Source of the DNA: Microcaldota archaeon
GTDB taxonomy: Archaea > Micrarchaeota > Micrarchaeia > Micrarchaeales > Micrarchaeaceae
Length of the DNA: 64,000 nt
Direction of reading: 5' to 3'
NCBI GenBank assembly: GCA_021797495.1
Contig: JAJZZO010000014.1
Location: 1 to 64,000, forward strand
In this document: positions 27,840 through 35,004 of the stretch, in pieces
Numbering within the stretch: position 1 is the first letter of the stretch
Layout of the letters: every line of letters starts with the position of its first letter
The notes under the pieces: generated by a model
The model's database searches: none
The model's input: the letters and a program-made list of their open reading frames with translations, nothing else
Told to the model about the DNA's origin: nothing
Program-made: the position numbers and the translations under genes

Positions 27840-29468
27840 CTAACCCGTTACGGAAAAGCTTTGTTCCCTCATGAACTGCTCTAGATAAAACTTGCTTCCG
27901 GTGCCCTTGCCCGTGAGGCTGCTTCCCTTCCAGCCCACAAATGTGTGCATGCCAACCACTGCCCCGGTTGTGGCGCTTATGGCTCTGTTTACATAAACCG
28001 TGCCAGCTTCTATGTGCTTCTCGAATTCACGTATCTCGGCCTTGTTCTTGCTGTACATGCCCGCAGTGAGCCCGTATTCCACATCGTTTGCAAGTTTTAT
28101 TGCCTCTCCGAAATCCTTGAAACTTTCCACGGTTATAAACGGCAGAAAAAGTTCCTTGTGTACCAGCTCATGGTCGTGCCTTATCTCGACTATGACGGGT
28201 TCCACGTAGAAACCGTCCATATCGTTGTTTACGCGGGCACCTCCGTATAGCAGCCTTCCTGCGGATTTCGCCTTGGAAACTGATTCTACGTATCTTGCAT
28301 ATGCGCCTTCGCTTATCAGCGGTCCCATATAGTTGCCTTTTACTATCGGGTTACCGATTTTGAGCTCTCTGGTGCGCTCTATCAGCTTGCTTAGGAAAAC
28401 CTCTTTTATAGATTCATGGACGTAGACCCTGGAAAGCGCACTGCATTTCTGGCCCGCGAAACCAAAAGCCGCGCTTACAGTTCCCTCAACTGCTTCATCT
28501 ATGTCGGCATGCTTTGATATGATGACTGGGTTTTTGCCGCCCATCTCGACAACAAACACTTTTTGGGCGTTATGCGCGTACGAGGTTGCAGCCATGCGCA
28601 TGCCTGTTTCCCTTGACCCGGTGAATGCAATCCCCGATACCCCGTTATTTACAGCAAGTTCGTCCCCTACCTCCGAGCCCGGGCCAGTGACATAGTTGAA
28701 TACGCCGTCTGGCATGCCTGCTTCCTTGAAAATTTCGTATATTTTTAATCCCGTCAACATTGACATGTTGTCTGTAGAGGATGGCTTGAATATTACAGTA
28801 TTTCCAGTTATCATAGCTCCAGTGCTCATCCCGACAGATATCGATATAGGGAAGTTGAATGGCGCTATAACTCCGAAAACACCATAGGGTTTGAGCTTTA
28901 TCGATATTTTTTCTGGTTTTTCCGCTGGAGCGCCTTGGAAACCTGCTTCGACCTTTACAGCACTTTGACTTATGGAATTTTTGCGCGAATAGCCTTTGTT
29001 CCTTTCCATCTCGATTATATAATAGTTTATAAAATCTATCGCCTCGTCTACCTCTCCCACAGATTCATACCTCGATTTGCCGTTTTCATAGCTGAGTATG
29101 GCGGCCAGTTCGAACTTTTTTTCACGGAATTTCTCCACCGCTTTCTTGAATATCGAGAGCCTTTCCCTGTAATCTTTTTGGCTCCATGATTCGAATGCCT
29201 TCCTTGCTTCCTCGATTGCCATCCTTGAATGCTCCCTTGTGCCCTTTTGGAACTTTCCCACAAGTATGCGCCTGTCTATCGGAGAATGCTCCTCGAGGAG
29301 CGCCTGCGCGGTCAACTGCTTGCCCCCGATGTACATAGGCCATGTCTTGCCGAATGCGGCCAATGAGTTTTTAGCAGCTTGGTCGAAAAGCGAATCGAAT
29401 TCCTGTTCCTTTCCGCTTTCGACCATTTTTCTGTATGTGAACTCGTTTGAAAATGCGCTTGTTGCCAC
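27840..29468 (-). CDS. 1-pyrroline-5-carboxylate dehydrogenase (aldehyde dehydrogenase family)
   Basis: A 542-residue NAD(P)-dependent aldehyde dehydrogenase of the P5CDH class, oxidising glutamate semialdehyde to glutamate. Pro-Phe-Asn-Phe-Pro-Ile (cofactor site), Phe-Thr-Gly-Ser-Arg-Glu-Thr-Gly, catalytic Glu in Val-Glu-Met-Gly-Gly-Lys-Asn and nucleophile Cys in Gly-Gln-Lys-Cys-Ser-Ala are all present; the Phe-Gly-Gln-Lys-Cys-Ser-Ala form is typical of P5CDH. A proline dehydrogenase gene at 38772 would supply its substrate. Promoter region shared with divergent sufB. Confidence 0.85.
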   Translation of the reverse strand: MATSAFSNEFTYRKMVESGKEQEFDSLFDQAAKNSLAAFGKTWPMYIGGKQLTAQALLEEHSPIDRRILVGKFQKGTREHSRMAIEEARKAFESWSQKDYRERLSIFKKAVEKFREKKFELAAILSYENGKSRYESVGEVDEAIDFINYYIIEMERNKGYSRKNSISQSAVKVEAGFQGAPAEKPEKISIKLKPYGVFGVIAPFNFPISISVGMSTGAMITGNTVIFKPSSTDNMSMLTGLKIYEIFKEAGMPDGVFNYVTGPGSEVGDELAVNNGVSGIAFTGSRETGMRMAATSYAHNAQKVFVVEMGGKNPVIISKHADIDEAVEGTVSAAFGFAGQKCSALSRVYVHESIKEVFLSKLIERTRELKIGNPIVKGNYMGPLISEGAYARYVESVSKAKSAGRLLYGGARVNNDMDGFYVEPVIVEIRHDHELVHKELFLPFITVESFKDFGEAIKLANDVEYGLTAGMYSKNKAEIREFEKHIEAGTVYVNRAISATTGAVVGMHTFVGWKGSSLTGKGTGSKFYLEQFMREQSFSVTG

Positions 29469-29604
29469 TTAAATCACCATAAGTCATATTTTTATAACAA
29501 AAACGTTTATACCTTTATATGTGTGCACCGGTATTGTAGCCAGCAACAGCAATTTATTGATAAGGTTTAAATATCATCATAGTTATAACCGAGTTATAAT
29601 GCAT

Positions 29605-29625
29605 TGCAAATAGGTAGCTATTGCA
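29605..29625. promoter_or_regulatory. Imperfect palindrome in the sufB promoter, candidate operator
   Basis: Arms TGCAA...TTGCA with inner TAG...CTA around a GTAG centre. It lies just after a TTATAAT box A-like element (29595-29601) and 16 bp before the sufB ATG, so it covers the expected transcription start. Candidate binding site for the HTH regulator encoded in the operon (32286). Confidence 0.4.
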
Positions 29626-29640
29626 GCATTAGGTGTTATT

Positions 29641-31056
29641 ATGCCTTCCAATGAAGCTCAGGACGTTATGCAAAAAGAGGATGAATACCTTACTAGGTAC
29701 GGTTTCAAGACAAAGGACGATTATGAAACGATAATGAAGGGACTTTCCGAGGATACGGTAAGGCAACTGTCCAAAAGCAAGAACGAGCCGGAGTGGATGC
29801 TTGAAAAACGGCTTTTAGGATATAGGATATTTAAGGAAAAGCCCGTACCAAAATGGGGGCCGGACCTCAGCGGAATAGACTACGACGATATTTATTATTA
29901 CCTTAAGCCAAACGCAAAGAAGAGCGATTCATGGGAAAACGTCCCGAAGGACATAAAGGAAACATTTGATAAGCTGGGCATACCAGAAGCTGAAAGAAAG
30001 TTTTTTGACGGTGCAGAAGCACAGTTTGATTCAGAAGTTGTGTATCACCACGTTAAGGAAGAACTGAACAAGCTCGGAGTGATATTTACGGACATGGACA
30101 ATGCCGTTAAAAATTATCCAGAAATAGTTAAAAAATATTTCGGGAACATAATACCCCCGAGCGACAACAAATACGCAGCGCTGAACACCGCAGTGTGGTC
30201 TGGCGGCTCCTTTATTTACATCCCGAAAGGAGTAAAGCTTTCAATGCCGCTGCAGGCATACTTCAGGATAAATGCTGAGAAAGCAGGACAGTTTGAGAGG
30301 ACATTGATAATAGCCGACGAGGGCAGCGAAGTGGTTTATATAGAAGGATGCACCGCCCCGATATACATAAGCTCGTCTTTACACGCAGCTGTTGTGGAGC
30401 TTGTTGCACACAAAAACGCCCACATAAGATATGTTACAGTTCAGAATTGGTCTAAGAACGTCTATAACCTGGTGACGCAAAGGGCATATGTCTACGAGAA
30501 TGGAAATGTGGAGTGGATAGATGCGAACATAGGGAGCAAGGTCAACATGAAATACCCGAGCGTTTTCCTGAAGGAGGAAGGAGCACGCGGAGAAATACTT
30601 TCTATAGCAGTAGCTGGAGAAAATCAAACACAGGATTCGGGAGGGAAGGCATACCACCTTGCCCCGAACACAACATCCCAGATAATATCCAAAAGCATCT
30701 CAAAGGGCAGTGGTGTTGCCTCTTATCGCGGATTGGTGCATATAGACAAGAACGCAACAAATTCAAAGTCGAGCGTAAAATGCGACGCATTGCTGCTGGA
30801 CAGGACCGCTAAGACCAATACGTATCCCTACAATGAAGTATACGCCGACGACGCTTTTGTCAGCCATGAGGCAACAGTAGGCAGGCTCGGAGAAGACGAA
30901 CTTTTTTATATGATGTCCAGAGGCTTGAAAGAGGACGACGCAATAGCCACTGCGGTACTCGGATTCATAGAACCGTTAGTCAAAGTGCTTCCGCTGGAGT
31001 ATTCTCTGGAGCTGAAACGTTTGATAAAACTGGATACCTCTAACTCCATAGCATAA
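29641..31056 (+). CDS. sufB: Fe-S cluster assembly scaffold SufB
   Basis: A 471-residue SufB: Pro-Lys-Gly-Val-Lys-Leu-Ser-Met-Pro-Leu-Gln-Ala-Tyr-Phe-Arg-Ile-Asn, Glu-Gly-Cys-Thr-Ala-Pro, the Ser-Ser-Val-Lys-Cys-Asp-Ala-Leu-Leu segment with a conserved Cys, and the C-terminal Glu-Ala-Thr-Val-Gly-Arg-Leu-Gly-Glu-Asp-Glu-Leu-Phe-Tyr-Met. It forms the SufBCD scaffold in the cytoplasm on which Fe-S clusters are built. First gene of the suf operon, with its own promoter and a candidate operator at 29605. Confidence 0.95.
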   Translation: MPSNEAQDVMQKEDEYLTRYGFKTKDDYETIMKGLSEDTVRQLSKSKNEPEWMLEKRLLGYRIFKEKPVPKWGPDLSGIDYDDIYYYLKPNAKKSDSWENVPKDIKETFDKLGIPEAERKFFDGAEAQFDSEVVYHHVKEELNKLGVIFTDMDNAVKNYPEIVKKYFGNIIPPSDNKYAALNTAVWSGGSFIYIPKGVKLSMPLQAYFRINAEKAGQFERTLIIADEGSEVVYIEGCTAPIYISSSLHAAVVELVAHKNAHIRYVTVQNWSKNVYNLVTQRAYVYENGNVEWIDANIGSKVNMKYPSVFLKEEGARGEILSIAVAGENQTQDSGGKAYHLAPNTTSQIISKSISKGSGVASYRGLVHIDKNATNSKSSVKCDALLLDRTAKTNTYPYNEVYADDAFVSHEATVGRLGEDELFYMMSRGLKEDDAIATAVLGFIEPLVKVLPLEYSLELKRLIKLDTSNSIA

Positions 31057-31066
31057 GGTAATGGAA

Positions 31067-32293
31067 ATGGCGATTAACGAAGAGCATAAGCAAAGCACAG
31101 CGGAAAGAGGTTACGGTGCTATCCCATTTGAAACCGATCAACTTTACAAAAAGTATTTTGTAAACGTGGATCTGGAAAGCCTTGAAGCAAACCATACAAA
31201 GGATGAACTTCTTTCGGACTATGATGAGAATGTAGTTGAAAGAATCCATAAGAAGACTGGAATAAAGTTCGATGCAGTTATACACAACGGGGTTATTGCA
31301 AGAGGTTCCGACATTGTAAAAACAGGCGGGAATGAGCAGAAGAAATCAGTAATGAACAACTTGCCTTCCGATAAATTTTCCGCATTTGCATACGATTTTT
31401 GCGTGGAGCCAATATCGATAGAAGTAAAGGAGAATAGCGATGGGATCAATATTCTATTTTTTAATTCAGGGAAAATGCATTCGCCGGCAAGTGTGTCTGT
31501 CAGCGTAGGGGAAGGCGTAAAGGCCACAGTGAATGAATATTATTTTTCTAACGATGTATCGGTGAATTCACTAAGCGGCTCTGCACAGTTTTTTGAGATT
31601 AAAGACCGTGCAAGGCTGGAATTCAATGAGATACACTGCGAATCAGCCAAAACGATTTCGTTAGTAACGCGGGCGTTTAAGACATATGATGAATCGGTTC
31701 TGGACTTCAACGCTTTTTATACCGGTGGCGCTTCAAGCAGGCAAAGGACGGTATTCAGGAACGACGGCGAGAATTCCGTAATAAGAGCAAACGAAGCGAT
31801 AATTGGCACCAACTCGCAGAAATTTGATTTGAACACGAACCTGACAAACATGAAGGCAAAAAGCAAATGCATTTATGAGGTTAGAGCAGTATTGGCAGAT
31901 AGTGCAAACGGCATAGTAAAAAGCTTTGCAAAAATTGTGAAAGGAGCTGAAGAAGCTGAATCGCACATAAAAGAGAGAGGGCTCATATACGATAAGGGAG
32001 CCAAGATAACGATGATGCCTGATATGTCAATCGACGAAAGTTACGTAAAAGCATCGCATTCCAGCTCAACGTCGCCCATATCGGAAGATGATATATTTTA
32101 TATTTCAAACAGGGGCATAAGCAAGGATAACGCGAAATTCTTGGTTGGCAGCGGGCTCATATATGAATTGCTGAAGAACATACGCAGCCAGGATGCAAAG
32201 GCTTTCAGCATGCTCATGGCAAGGCACAGGCTTGAAACAAGGGAGATTGGCATCCCAGAAGCGCTAGGAAGTTATGGTGTTTGGTATGACTAA
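31067..32293 (+). CDS. sufD: SufD-like Fe-S cluster assembly protein
   Basis: A 408-residue SufB/SufD-fold protein lying ten bases after sufB. The C-terminal third has the family's beta-helix end: Ser-His-Ile-Lys-Glu-Arg-Gly-Leu, Met-Met-Pro-Asp-Met-Ser, a conserved His in Ala-Ser-His-Ser-Ser-Ser-Thr-Ser-Pro-Ile, Asp-Asp-Ile-Phe-Tyr-Ile-Ser-Asn-Arg-Gly-Ile. The N-terminal part is diverged, as is usual for SufD. It partners SufB and SufC. ATG 31061 is an alternative start. Overlaps the next gene by eight bases. Confidence 0.88.
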   Translation: MAINEEHKQSTAERGYGAIPFETDQLYKKYFVNVDLESLEANHTKDELLSDYDENVVERIHKKTGIKFDAVIHNGVIARGSDIVKTGGNEQKKSVMNNLPSDKFSAFAYDFCVEPISIEVKENSDGINILFFNSGKMHSPASVSVSVGEGVKATVNEYYFSNDVSVNSLSGSAQFFEIKDRARLEFNEIHCESAKTISLVTRAFKTYDESVLDFNAFYTGGASSRQRTVFRNDGENSVIRANEAIIGTNSQKFDLNTNLTNMKAKSKCIYEVRAVLADSANGIVKSFAKIVKGAEEAESHIKERGLIYDKGAKITMMPDMSIDESYVKASHSSSTSPISEDDIFYISNRGISKDNAKFLVGSGLIYELLKNIRSQDAKAFSMLMARHRLETREIGIPEALGSYGVWYD

Positions 32294-32609
32294 TAAAAAA
32301 ACCAGTTATGATTACGTTGCGGATAAGTTCATACCGTTTATCAAGGCGAAAACTGCGGCCGTGCTTTCCAGCAAGTATGGACTTACACAGCAGAGCATAT
32401 CGAAGATGCTTGGTGTTAGCCAGGCAGAGATCAGCAAATACCTGAAACGCAGTGATTTGGGAAGCTACAGCGCCATTAAGATAAAAAAGAAAGACATAGA
32501 TGCGTTCGCAAAAAGCGTGATGATGAAAAACGAATATGATGCGCAGAAGGTCATATGCGGGATATGCCCCAAAGGTGCAAATAAGTCATGTTATATAATG
32601 ATAAAATAG
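32286..32609 (+). CDS. HTH transcriptional regulator with C-terminal Cys cluster, candidate Fe-S sensor of the suf operon
   Basis: A 107-residue protein. A helix-turn-helix (about residues 34-56: Gly-Leu-Thr-Gln-Gln-Ser-Ile-Ser-Lys-Met-Leu-Gly-Val-Ser-Gln-Ala-Glu-Ile-Ser-Lys) is followed by C91-x2-C94-x7-C102 at the C-terminus. Archaeal HTH regulators with a C-terminal CxxC...C are a known family (predicted regulators of the COG2522 type). Placement between sufD and sufC, with both overlaps or near-overlaps, suggests it senses Fe-S status and controls this operon, functionally like bacterial SufR or IscR though not obviously related. ATG 32274 is an alternative start. Confidence 0.75.
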   Translation: MTNKKTSYDYVADKFIPFIKAKTAAVLSSKYGLTQQSISKMLGVSQAEISKYLKRSDLGSYSAIKIKKKDIDAFAKSVMMKNEYDAQKVICGICPKGANKSCYIMIK

Positions 32610-32617
32610 GTGTAAGC

Positions 32618-33349
32618 GTGTTGCTTGAAATAAGAGATTTGAAAGCTGAAATAGGAGGAAAAAGGATACTTGACGGATTGAACTTAAAGATAAACACCAA
32701 GGAATTCCATGTACTAATGGGACCGAACGGCTCGGGAAAAACAACACTTGCCAAAGCGATAATGGGCCACCCAGGCGTTAAGGTGGTTGGTGGAGATATA
32801 CTGGTAGAAGGGAAATCGATATTAGGCCTAACTCCAGATAAAAGGGCAAAACTGGGCTTGTTCATGCTATTCCAGAATCCATCCGAAATAGACGGAGTAG
32901 GATTCGTAAATTTCCTGCGGTCATCGGTAGAATCGATTGGCGAACACACCATAAACACAAAAGAGTTCATGGACAGCATAAAGAATAATGCGGAACAATT
33001 GAAATTCGACAAGAACATTGTGGGGAGATCGCTGAACAAAGGATTTTCAGGAGGAGAGAAGAAAAAAGCTGAGATTTTGCAGATGGCGATATTGAAACCT
33101 AAGATAGCAATACTTGATGAACCGGATTCTGGTCTTGACGTGGATGCAATAAAGATAGTAGCGGCCAACATAAACAGGATAATTGGCGAGACAGCCCCTG
33201 GGCTTTTGGTTATAACGCACTATAGCAGGATATTGGAATATATGAAGCCGGAATACGTGCACGTGATGATTAACGGGAAAATCATAAAGGAGGGTGGGAT
33301 TTCGTTGATAAAAGAAATAGAAAAAGCAGGATATGATAAAATAGGATGA
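32618..33349 (+). CDS. sufC: SufC ATPase
   Basis: A 243-residue ABC-type ATPase: Walker A GPNGSGKTT near residue 33, Gln-loop Phe-Gln-Asn-Pro, signature Phe-Ser-Gly-Gly-Glu-Lys-Lys-Lys, Walker B Ile-Leu-Asp-Glu-Pro-Asp-Ser-Gly-Leu-Asp and His of Thr-His-Tyr. It drives conformational change of SufBD. GTG 32618 is chosen because AGGTG lies five bases upstream; ATG 32588, overlapping the regulator, is an alternative. Confidence 0.95.
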   Translation: MLLEIRDLKAEIGGKRILDGLNLKINTKEFHVLMGPNGSGKTTLAKAIMGHPGVKVVGGDILVEGKSILGLTPDKRAKLGLFMLFQNPSEIDGVGFVNFLRSSVESIGEHTINTKEFMDSIKNNAEQLKFDKNIVGRSLNKGFSGGEKKKAEILQMAILKPKIAILDEPDSGLDVDAIKIVAANINRIIGETAPGLLVITHYSRILEYMKPEYVHVMINGKIIKEGGISLIKEIEKAGYDKIG

Positions 33350-33353
33350 TTGC

Positions 33354-34595
33354 TTGGCAACATTAGACGTAAATGAAATAAAAAAGGATTTTCCAATCCT
33401 TCAGTCTACAAAGGACGGGAAAAGACTTGTATATTTGGATAGTGCCGCAACTTCTCAAAAACCCAATCAGGTAATAGATGCGATAAGCGATTATTACCGC
33501 ACGTATAATGCCAATATACACAGGGGAATATATCACATAGCTGAAGAGGCTACAGAAGCGTATGAAAATTCGAAAAGGGATGTTGCCAGATTTGTTGGCG
33601 CGGAATCTTATGAAGAGATAGTTTATGTTAGGAATACGACCGAAGCAATAAACCTTGTGGCGCTTTCCTGGGGCGAAAAGAACATAAAAGAAGGGGACCA
33701 TATACTAATATCTGAGATGGAGCACCACAGCAATCTTGTTCCGTGGATATTATTGACCAAGCGAAAGAAGGCAAAGCTTGACTATGTGAAGGTTGGGAAG
33801 GATTACAGGTTGGATCGACAAAGCTTAAGCGAAGGATTGGAAAACAACCCGAAACTTTTGGCCATAACCCACTCGTCTAATGTGCTCGGAACAATAAATG
33901 ACGTTAAAGAGATAACAAAAGAAGCTCACAAACACGGAACTAAAGTTTTGGTGGATGGAGCGCAGTCAGTTCCCCATATGCCGGTAGACATAAACGACAT
34001 AGGGTGTGAGTTTTATGCATTTTCAGGCCATAAAATGCTCGGGCCCACGGGCATAGGGGTCTTATACGGGAAAAGGGAAGAACTGGAGAACATGCCCCCA
34101 ATAATCGGAGGCGGAGACATGATAAGGACCGTGGAGTTTTACTCCTGCACCTGGAACGACATACCTTGGAAGTTCGAAGCAGGAACCTCGAATATAGAGG
34201 GAGGCATAGGGATGACGCCAGCAATACAATACCTGGAAAATCTCGGTATGAAAAAGGTGTTTGAGCATGAGGCCGCGTTGACAAAATATGCAATTGATGA
34301 ACTTTCCAAAATAAGCAGCGTTGAGACTTTTGGTCCCGGAATAGATAGAGAAGACCATGCAGGCGTAGTCTCTTTTAATATAAAAGGAGTGCATCCGCAC
34401 GATGTAGCAAGCATATTCGATAATTACAATGTCGCTATACGCGCGGGGCACCACTGCGCTATGCCGCTTGTAACGCAGCTTTTAGGGCAGAGTGCCGTAG
34501 CCAGAATGAGTTTTTATATATATAACGACGAAAACGATATAGACAAAGCAGTAGAAGCAATAAACGAGGTTAAAAGAATATTTAAAGTGAAGTGA
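33354..34595 (+). CDS. sufS: Cysteine desulfurase SufS
   Basis: A 413-residue PLP enzyme that takes sulfur from cysteine. Asp-Ser-Ala-Ala-Thr-Ser-Gln-Lys-Pro near the start, His-His-Ser-Asn for the PLP ring, Asp-Gly-Ala-Gln-Ser, PLP-Lys in Ser-Gly-His-Lys-Met-Leu-Gly-Pro-Thr-Gly, and the persulfide Cys in Arg-Ala-Gly-His-His-Cys-Ala-Met-Pro. TTG start four bases after sufC. Feeds SufU, encoded next. Confidence 0.95.
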   Translation: MATLDVNEIKKDFPILQSTKDGKRLVYLDSAATSQKPNQVIDAISDYYRTYNANIHRGIYHIAEEATEAYENSKRDVARFVGAESYEEIVYVRNTTEAINLVALSWGEKNIKEGDHILISEMEHHSNLVPWILLTKRKKAKLDYVKVGKDYRLDRQSLSEGLENNPKLLAITHSSNVLGTINDVKEITKEAHKHGTKVLVDGAQSVPHMPVDINDIGCEFYAFSGHKMLGPTGIGVLYGKREELENMPPIIGGGDMIRTVEFYSCTWNDIPWKFEAGTSNIEGGIGMTPAIQYLENLGMKKVFEHEAALTKYAIDELSKISSVETFGPGIDREDHAGVVSFNIKGVHPHDVASIFDNYNVAIRAGHHCAMPLVTQLLGQSAVARMSFYIYNDENDIDKAVEAINEVKRIFKVK

Positions 34596-34599
34596 TTCA

Positions 34600-35004
34600 A
34601 TGGGTCTGGATTTATACGCCGAGGATTTAGTCGCAAATTATGAACACCCACACAACAAAAAAAGCATGGCGGACAGCGATTCGCATAGCCACGAATACAA
34701 TACCACATGCGGAGACGACATAACAGTATATATAAAAGTGAAGGACGGGAAAATAGCCGACGTTAGTTTTGATGGCAGCGGTTGCGCTATAAGCGTAGGT
34801 ACCGCAAGCAAACTGACTGACGCGATAAAAGGAAAAAGCGTCGAAGAAATCGAAAAGCTTGGGTTTGATTATATAGTGGAGTTGATAGGCATAGACCCAG
34901 GTCCGGCAAGAGCAAAATGCGCATCGATATCATTGAAGGCGTTAAAAAAGGCTGTATTTATATACGAGCACAAGAAACCAGATAGTGGAACAGAAAAACT
35001 ATGA
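34600..35004 (+). CDS. sufU: SufU/IscU-type sulfur acceptor
   Basis: A 134-residue IscU-fold protein with the three Cys and Asp of the zinc/sulfur site: C37-Gly-D39, C62 in Gly-Ser-Gly-Cys-Ala-Ile-Ser, and C107 in Arg-Ala-Lys-Cys-Ala. The Ala-Ile-Ser-Val-Gly-Thr-Ala-Ser insertion region is SufU-like rather than IscU-like. It accepts sulfur from SufS. Last gene of the operon, overlapping the convergent alaX by six bases. Confidence 0.9.
   Translation: MGLDLYAEDLVANYEHPHNKKSMADSDSHSHEYNTTCGDDITVYIKVKDGKIADVSFDGSGCAISVGTASKLTDAIKGKSVEEIEKLGFDYIVELIGIDPGPARAKCASISLKALKKAVFIYEHKKPDSGTEKL

Follow-up and report, generated by a model that had tools for sequence, protein, structure and literature searches.

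The cluster of SufR is ligated by cysteines, IscR has three conserved cysteines, and SurR of Pyrococcus is an archaeal regulator with a CxxC motif, which acts on sulfur-related genes as a thiol redox switch. As far as the accessible text of the respective papers goes, IscR with its cluster represses isc and acts on suf in Escherichia coli (PMC9628965), SufR represses the suf operon in cyanobacteria and mycobacteria (PMC6034842), and RisR provides an independently evolved control of ISC/SUF in Myxococcus (PMC9973013). The literature searched yielded no description of a protein that regulates transcription of suf or isc genes in archaea, and the accessible portions of three papers (PMC9628965, PMC8975820, and PMC8351635) name none for archaea.

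Here, we analyzed a stretch of 64,000 nucleotides (the window) from a Micrarchaeum-like genome, in which a small helix-turn-helix (HTH) protein with clustered cysteines is encoded inside a suf operon. It resembles IscR in being encoded with an Fe-S assembly operon, and it resembles SufR in that a palindromic, operator-like site lies at the suf promoter, a likeness of presence and not of sequence. However, its HTH belongs to another family than that of IscR, its three invariant cysteines are spaced x2/x7, and the IscR site differs from the Micrarchaeota palindrome. The SufR cysteine pattern likewise differs from C-x2-C-x7-C, and the Micrarchaeota protein has only 107 amino acids. Membership in either family was rejected: at E values up to 1, Pfam and NCBIfam gave no match to the Rrf2-family winged HTH (which we take to be PF02082) or to IscR, and no SufR model was among the NCBIfam matches. 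RisR, which is bacterial, and SurR can be likened to the Micrarchaeota regulator by description only.

The suf operon and its cysteine-bearing HTH protein

The operon is one of tiny, acid-loving archaea. The genome of the window has a size of 0.96 Mb, and its nearest named relatives, 64 to 67% identical, comprise Candidatus Micrarchaeum A_DKE and Micrarchaeota bins, some of which are labelled Marsarchaeota. The operon is ordered sufB-sufD-HTH-sufC-sufS-sufU on the forward strand. sufB (29641 to 31056; TIGR01980), sufC (32618 to 33349; TIGR01978), and sufS (33354 to 34595; TIGR01979) scored above their NCBIfam cut-offs, and sufU (34600 to 35004) reached 92.7 bits against a cut-off of 92.5 for TIGR01994. 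For sufD (31061 to 32293), the best match was TIGR01981 (E of 9e-41, below its cut-off), and PF01458 was above cut-off. The regulator gene (32286 to 32609, forward strand) runs from an ATG at 32286 to a stop codon ending at 32609, shares 8 bp with the 3' end of sufD, and lies within about 10 bp of the downstream sufC, whose GTG start was set by homology within an ORF open from an ATG at 32588. An alternative ATG of the regulator ORF at 32274 would yield 111 amino acids. In several relatives (L034, L031, L035, L048, L054, G022, and G108), sufB is interrupted, in one of them (L034:2348-4924) by an intein that contains splicing and LAGLIDADG domains.

The first-pass annotation had described the product as an HTH protein with C91-x2-C94-x7-C102 encoded between sufD and sufC, and the ORF, the HTH, the cysteines, and the position were all found. 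Pfam gave sub-threshold matches to HTH_17/HTH_3, and neither Pfam nor NCBIfam held a curated family fitting the protein beyond these or, for the diverse relatives tested, a family beyond generic HTH. The AlphaFold2 model has a mean pLDDT of 79.6, with a well-modelled HTH. Based on the model and the invariant columns, the HTH proper comprises residues 35 to 54 (32388 to 32447, forward strand), with residues 46 to 54 as the recognition helix. A structure look-up returned no PDB match at E <= 0.001, and by sequence the HTH parts alone matched the PDB.

The codons of the three cysteines, a putative Fe-S or metal site, lie at 32556 to 32591 on the forward strand, and the corresponding loop was modelled with low confidence (block pLDDT of 63 to 69). 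In an alignment of 53 suf-linked sequences (A1), the invariant columns were P17, the recognition-helix residues Q46, K51, and Y52, and C91, C94, and C102. The first-pass proposal would have failed had the cysteines varied; they were kept in all 53 aligned homologues, and C102 was missing in 1 of the 54 suf-linked sequences examined (L033, left out of A1). A C-x2-C-x6-8-C pattern was present at all 64 named suf-type loci. Only these three cysteines are conserved, and there is no conserved histidine.

Of the 60 genomes covered by the relatives search, 55 contained a homologue. The survey of gene order in other archaea that the first-pass annotation had suggested revealed conserved suf linkage in two Micrarchaeota families. 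In Micrarchaeaceae, the regulator gene adjoins sufC and/or sufD at 29 of 29 loci (L001 to L029), with only sufC and sufS visible at L016, which lies close to the start of its contig. The second family of the order has the gene at the head of the operon, ahead of sufB. suf genes were visible at 63 of the 64 named suf-type loci, the exception (L118) ending at a contig edge. Many genomes also carry a second, non-suf family member (L044, L051, and L057 to L070); C-x2-C-x7-C is absent from all 16 of these paralogues, and an N-terminal cysteine is invariant among them. No viral relatives of the regulator were found, and plasmid relatives were confined to three haloarchaeal partial matches.

A conserved palindrome at suf promoters

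Comparison of promoters across loci revealed a conserved palindrome, TTATAACCGAGTTATAA (29583 to 29599), which we propose as the operator. A BRE/TATA-like element, ATAAGG-TTTAAATA, could be read at 29560 to 29573 on the forward strand, its TATA-like box TTTAAATA (29566 to 29573) lying just upstream of the palindrome. Given this position and the usual archaeal spacing between TATA box and transcription start, the palindrome would lie at or just before the transcription start, i.e., in a repressor's place. In the compared promoters, TTATAAC-N3-GTTATAA lies ahead of sufB in one of the two families and ahead of the HTH gene in the second; thus, the site follows the operon promoter and not one particular gene.

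The exact core (TATAAC-N3-GTTATA) occurred within 180 nt at 56 of 60 operon starts, even where the gene order differed, and a TATA-like hexamer lay 5' of it in 54 of these 56 promoters. These 60 starts are the 64 named loci minus four without an operon start (L072, L080, L100, and L121). One of the remaining starts had one mismatch, two had two mismatches, and L135 had no site at sufB; this locus, from a distant lineage with the order sufC-B-D-S-U-HTH, has a two-mismatch site before sufC and was counted as lacking the site. Among 2,560 dinucleotide-shuffled sequences, none contained an exact match and 8 contained a match with one mismatch.

The first-pass annotation had placed its candidate operator a few base pairs downstream, at 29605 to 29625. 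The dyad symmetry of this stretch is imperfect (6 of 11 arm pairs matched, ungapped), and the stretch is not conserved: the exact string was present at 1 of 185 loci, namely the one covering the window itself, and upstream of sufB none of the four close relatives tested had a 21-mer match exceeding that of shuffled sequence. It was therefore rejected as an operator and is, as far as tested, private to the genome of the window. Farther upstream, a TTTTTATAACAAAAACGTTTATACC-like stretch (29486 to 29515) is conserved in the close relatives L073 and L074 and less exactly in L075; it is perhaps the promoter of a divergent aldehyde-dehydrogenase-like gene (27840 to 29468).

The site and the regulator co-occur. 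In 161 genomes of the two families, exact sites were found in 124 of 132 regulator-bearing genomes versus 11 of 29 with the regulator absent or weakly matched, presence being defined as an A1 match at E <= 1e-22, plus G031, and several to many of the 29 genomes being incomplete. The site was found in 1 of 13 genomes without any regulator match, and it was kept in exact form in 11 of 12 genomes whose sole family match is the suf-type protein. Nine genomes have sufB while no regulator was detected in them; their best sufB-promoter matches had 3 to 5 mismatches. G031, apparently an exception with a site and no regulator, carries a divergent suf-linked copy and an exact site, and its row in the sufB comparison shows 4 mismatches because the extrapolated sufB start falls inside the site. 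The 60 genomes of the relatives set (G000 to G059) contained 81 exact sites, spread over 52 of them, compared with 6 matches for the reversed pattern. In families of the class other than these two, 10 of 16 genomes with a good match had the site versus 6 of 118 of the rest, and in several genomes it preceded the HTH gene or its operon.

Besides suf, 27 site loci were examined in the two families (L216 to L241 and L243), not including second sites of G006 and G007. Ten of them involve ZIP-like transporters, all in one homology cluster, of which one passes the Pfam ZIP cut-off and four more match below it; a one-query search of the window's own genome gave no ZIP homologue at E <= 0.001. Tetraether lipid synthase (Tes) stands behind the site at two loci, one identified by NCBIfam and the other as its homologue. 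Genes without a clear link account for 12 loci, and a clear iron or Fe-S target is missing at 15 of the 27. The second exact site in the genome of the window (G000:C12:9697) lies before a gene for which Pfam has no family, and this site may be a chance occurrence. Three related methyltransferase genes of second-family genomes (L221, L222, and L229) also carry the suf palindrome at their promoters.

Elsewhere in the class, the site stands ahead of iscS at five loci, of HTH-suf operons at three (one with two sites), of a ThiI-HTH operon at two, and of the HTH gene alone at two. FTR1, Fe/Mn-SOD, and a riboflavin-kinase gene follow it at one locus each, and two loci show no clear target. At L348 (G195), the gene behind the palindrome encodes an HTH together with a CTP-dependent riboflavin kinase domain.

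Proposed control of suf and alternative readings

The first-pass annotation regarded the protein as an Fe-S-ligating repressor, analogous to SufR/IscR and of separate origin. A suf regulator of separate origin is strongly supported by these comparisons, because the linkage is conserved, the cysteines are invariant, the palindrome is operator-like, and it is absent where the protein is absent; whether the protein ligates a cluster and represses is a further step, which we infer. That the protein and the palindrome form a regulator-operator pair for suf is, judging from sequence comparison, very likely. We further consider it probable that the HTH protein is a dedicated, cluster-sensing suf regulator, which binds TTATAAC-N3-GTTATAA, represses, and carries an Fe-S cluster on C91, C94, and C102.

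According to this model, the protein, probably as a dimer, would bind the palindrome, which lies behind the TATA box and ahead of the sufB start, and block assembly or start of the polymerase complex, so that suf would be repressed. C91, C94, and C102 would hold the cluster, the fourth ligand position being most likely open or occupied by a non-cysteine ligand. Under good Fe-S supply the holo-form would repress suf, and upon loss of clusters through iron shortage or oxygen suf would be induced. Since its gene lies inside the suf operon, the regulator would control its own gene too. The same site before iscS-iscU and some iron genes in relatives suggests that it works like IscR/SufR, as a repressor of suf and iron genes that would sense Fe-S or iron. 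Taken together, the data suggest a switch for iron-sulfur genes that has no relation to those of bacteria. A protein together with a defined site of 17 bp opens Fe-S homeostasis in archaea to immediate in vitro tests.

Fe-S sensing seems to be the most economical reading of three invariant cysteines in a suf-linked regulator, although CxxC...C sites are common for zinc and also fit a disulfide switch. With regulator and operator unchanged, the protein might sense metal or redox state, its cysteines serving as ligands of Zn (or of Fe itself) or as a redox disulfide switch; we regard this as rather unlikely. The site at ten ZIP-like transporter genes would suit a zinc sensor, and the Fe/Mn-SOD gene behind it in one genome and the additional C/H residues behind the core in some Halobacteriota relatives are in line with metal or redox sensing. 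Nevertheless, the core linkage in several families is to Fe-S assembly (suf or iscS-iscU), as expected of a cluster sensor, and both FTR1 and Tes count among iron or Fe-S genes.

That another factor, such as the non-suf paralogue, binds the palindrome while the suf-linked protein acts elsewhere is quite improbable. A second family member is present in many, if not most, genomes, and its target DNA could be the same. However, the exact site persists in nearly all genomes that have the suf-type protein alone, which makes the paralogue a less likely binder, and in the second family, as in other families, it is the Cys-HTH gene itself that has the site before it. Hardly credible, in our opinion, is an accessory of the Suf machinery, i.e., a cluster carrier or a SufBCD partner that has kept the HTH only as a fold: its encoding within sufBD-C, with overlapping or closely spaced genes, and its invariant cysteines would suit such a role, whereas the invariant Q46, K51, and Y52 of the recognition helix and the lack of the palindrome where the regulator gene is missing argue against it.

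Relatives in other archaea

We read 30 loci for the other families of the class, one of which (L281) belongs to the window's own family. suf or iscS/iscU-like genes lay within the 1.5-kb flanks at 23 of them, and a site with at most one mismatch was present within 200 nt upstream at 13. Such a site was found upstream of 11 of 14 genes encoding lysine at position 51, compared with 2 of 13 encoding other residues; this comparison omits L274 and L278, which are not in A3, and L281, whose operon starts at sufB.

Halobacteriota were sampled as the phylum to which a Natrialba genome belongs, and a family match was found in 130 of 148 genomes. Among the best 30 loci, 28 displayed C-x2-C-x4-12-C and 7 had a cysteine-desulfurase match nearby. 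The best match to the suf palindrome had 3 to 5 mismatches upstream of all 30 genes, and hence the same operator is not supported there. Haloarchaeal proteins combining an HTH with a thiamine-phosphate-synthase-like domain, presumably ThiR, share a homologous HTH, and some keep C..H..CxxC behind it; however, they have about 300 amino acids and an extra domain, lack Cx2Cx7C, and include one annotated as thiamine-phosphate synthase family.

A homologous HTH followed by C-x2-C-x(4-12)-C was thus found beyond Micrarchaeota, delineating an archaeal Cys-HTH family that we assume to be COG2522. We tentatively suggest, as a possibility somewhat short of an even chance, that the Micrarchaeota proteins are a branch of an old, archaea-wide family of Fe-S sensors controlling cysteine desulfurase and Suf genes, that its regulon (suf, iscS-iscU, ThiI, FTR1, ZIP, SOD, and Tes) was built independently of IscR/SufR/RirA, and that ThiR is an offshoot. 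Most of the Halobacteriota genomes sampled encode relatives, through which the question could be taken up in genetically tractable methanogens. In one Halobacteriota genome (L329:1426-2700), a Cys-HTH lies in one open frame with quinolinate synthase NadA, an Fe-S enzyme, either as a fusion or as adjoining genes.
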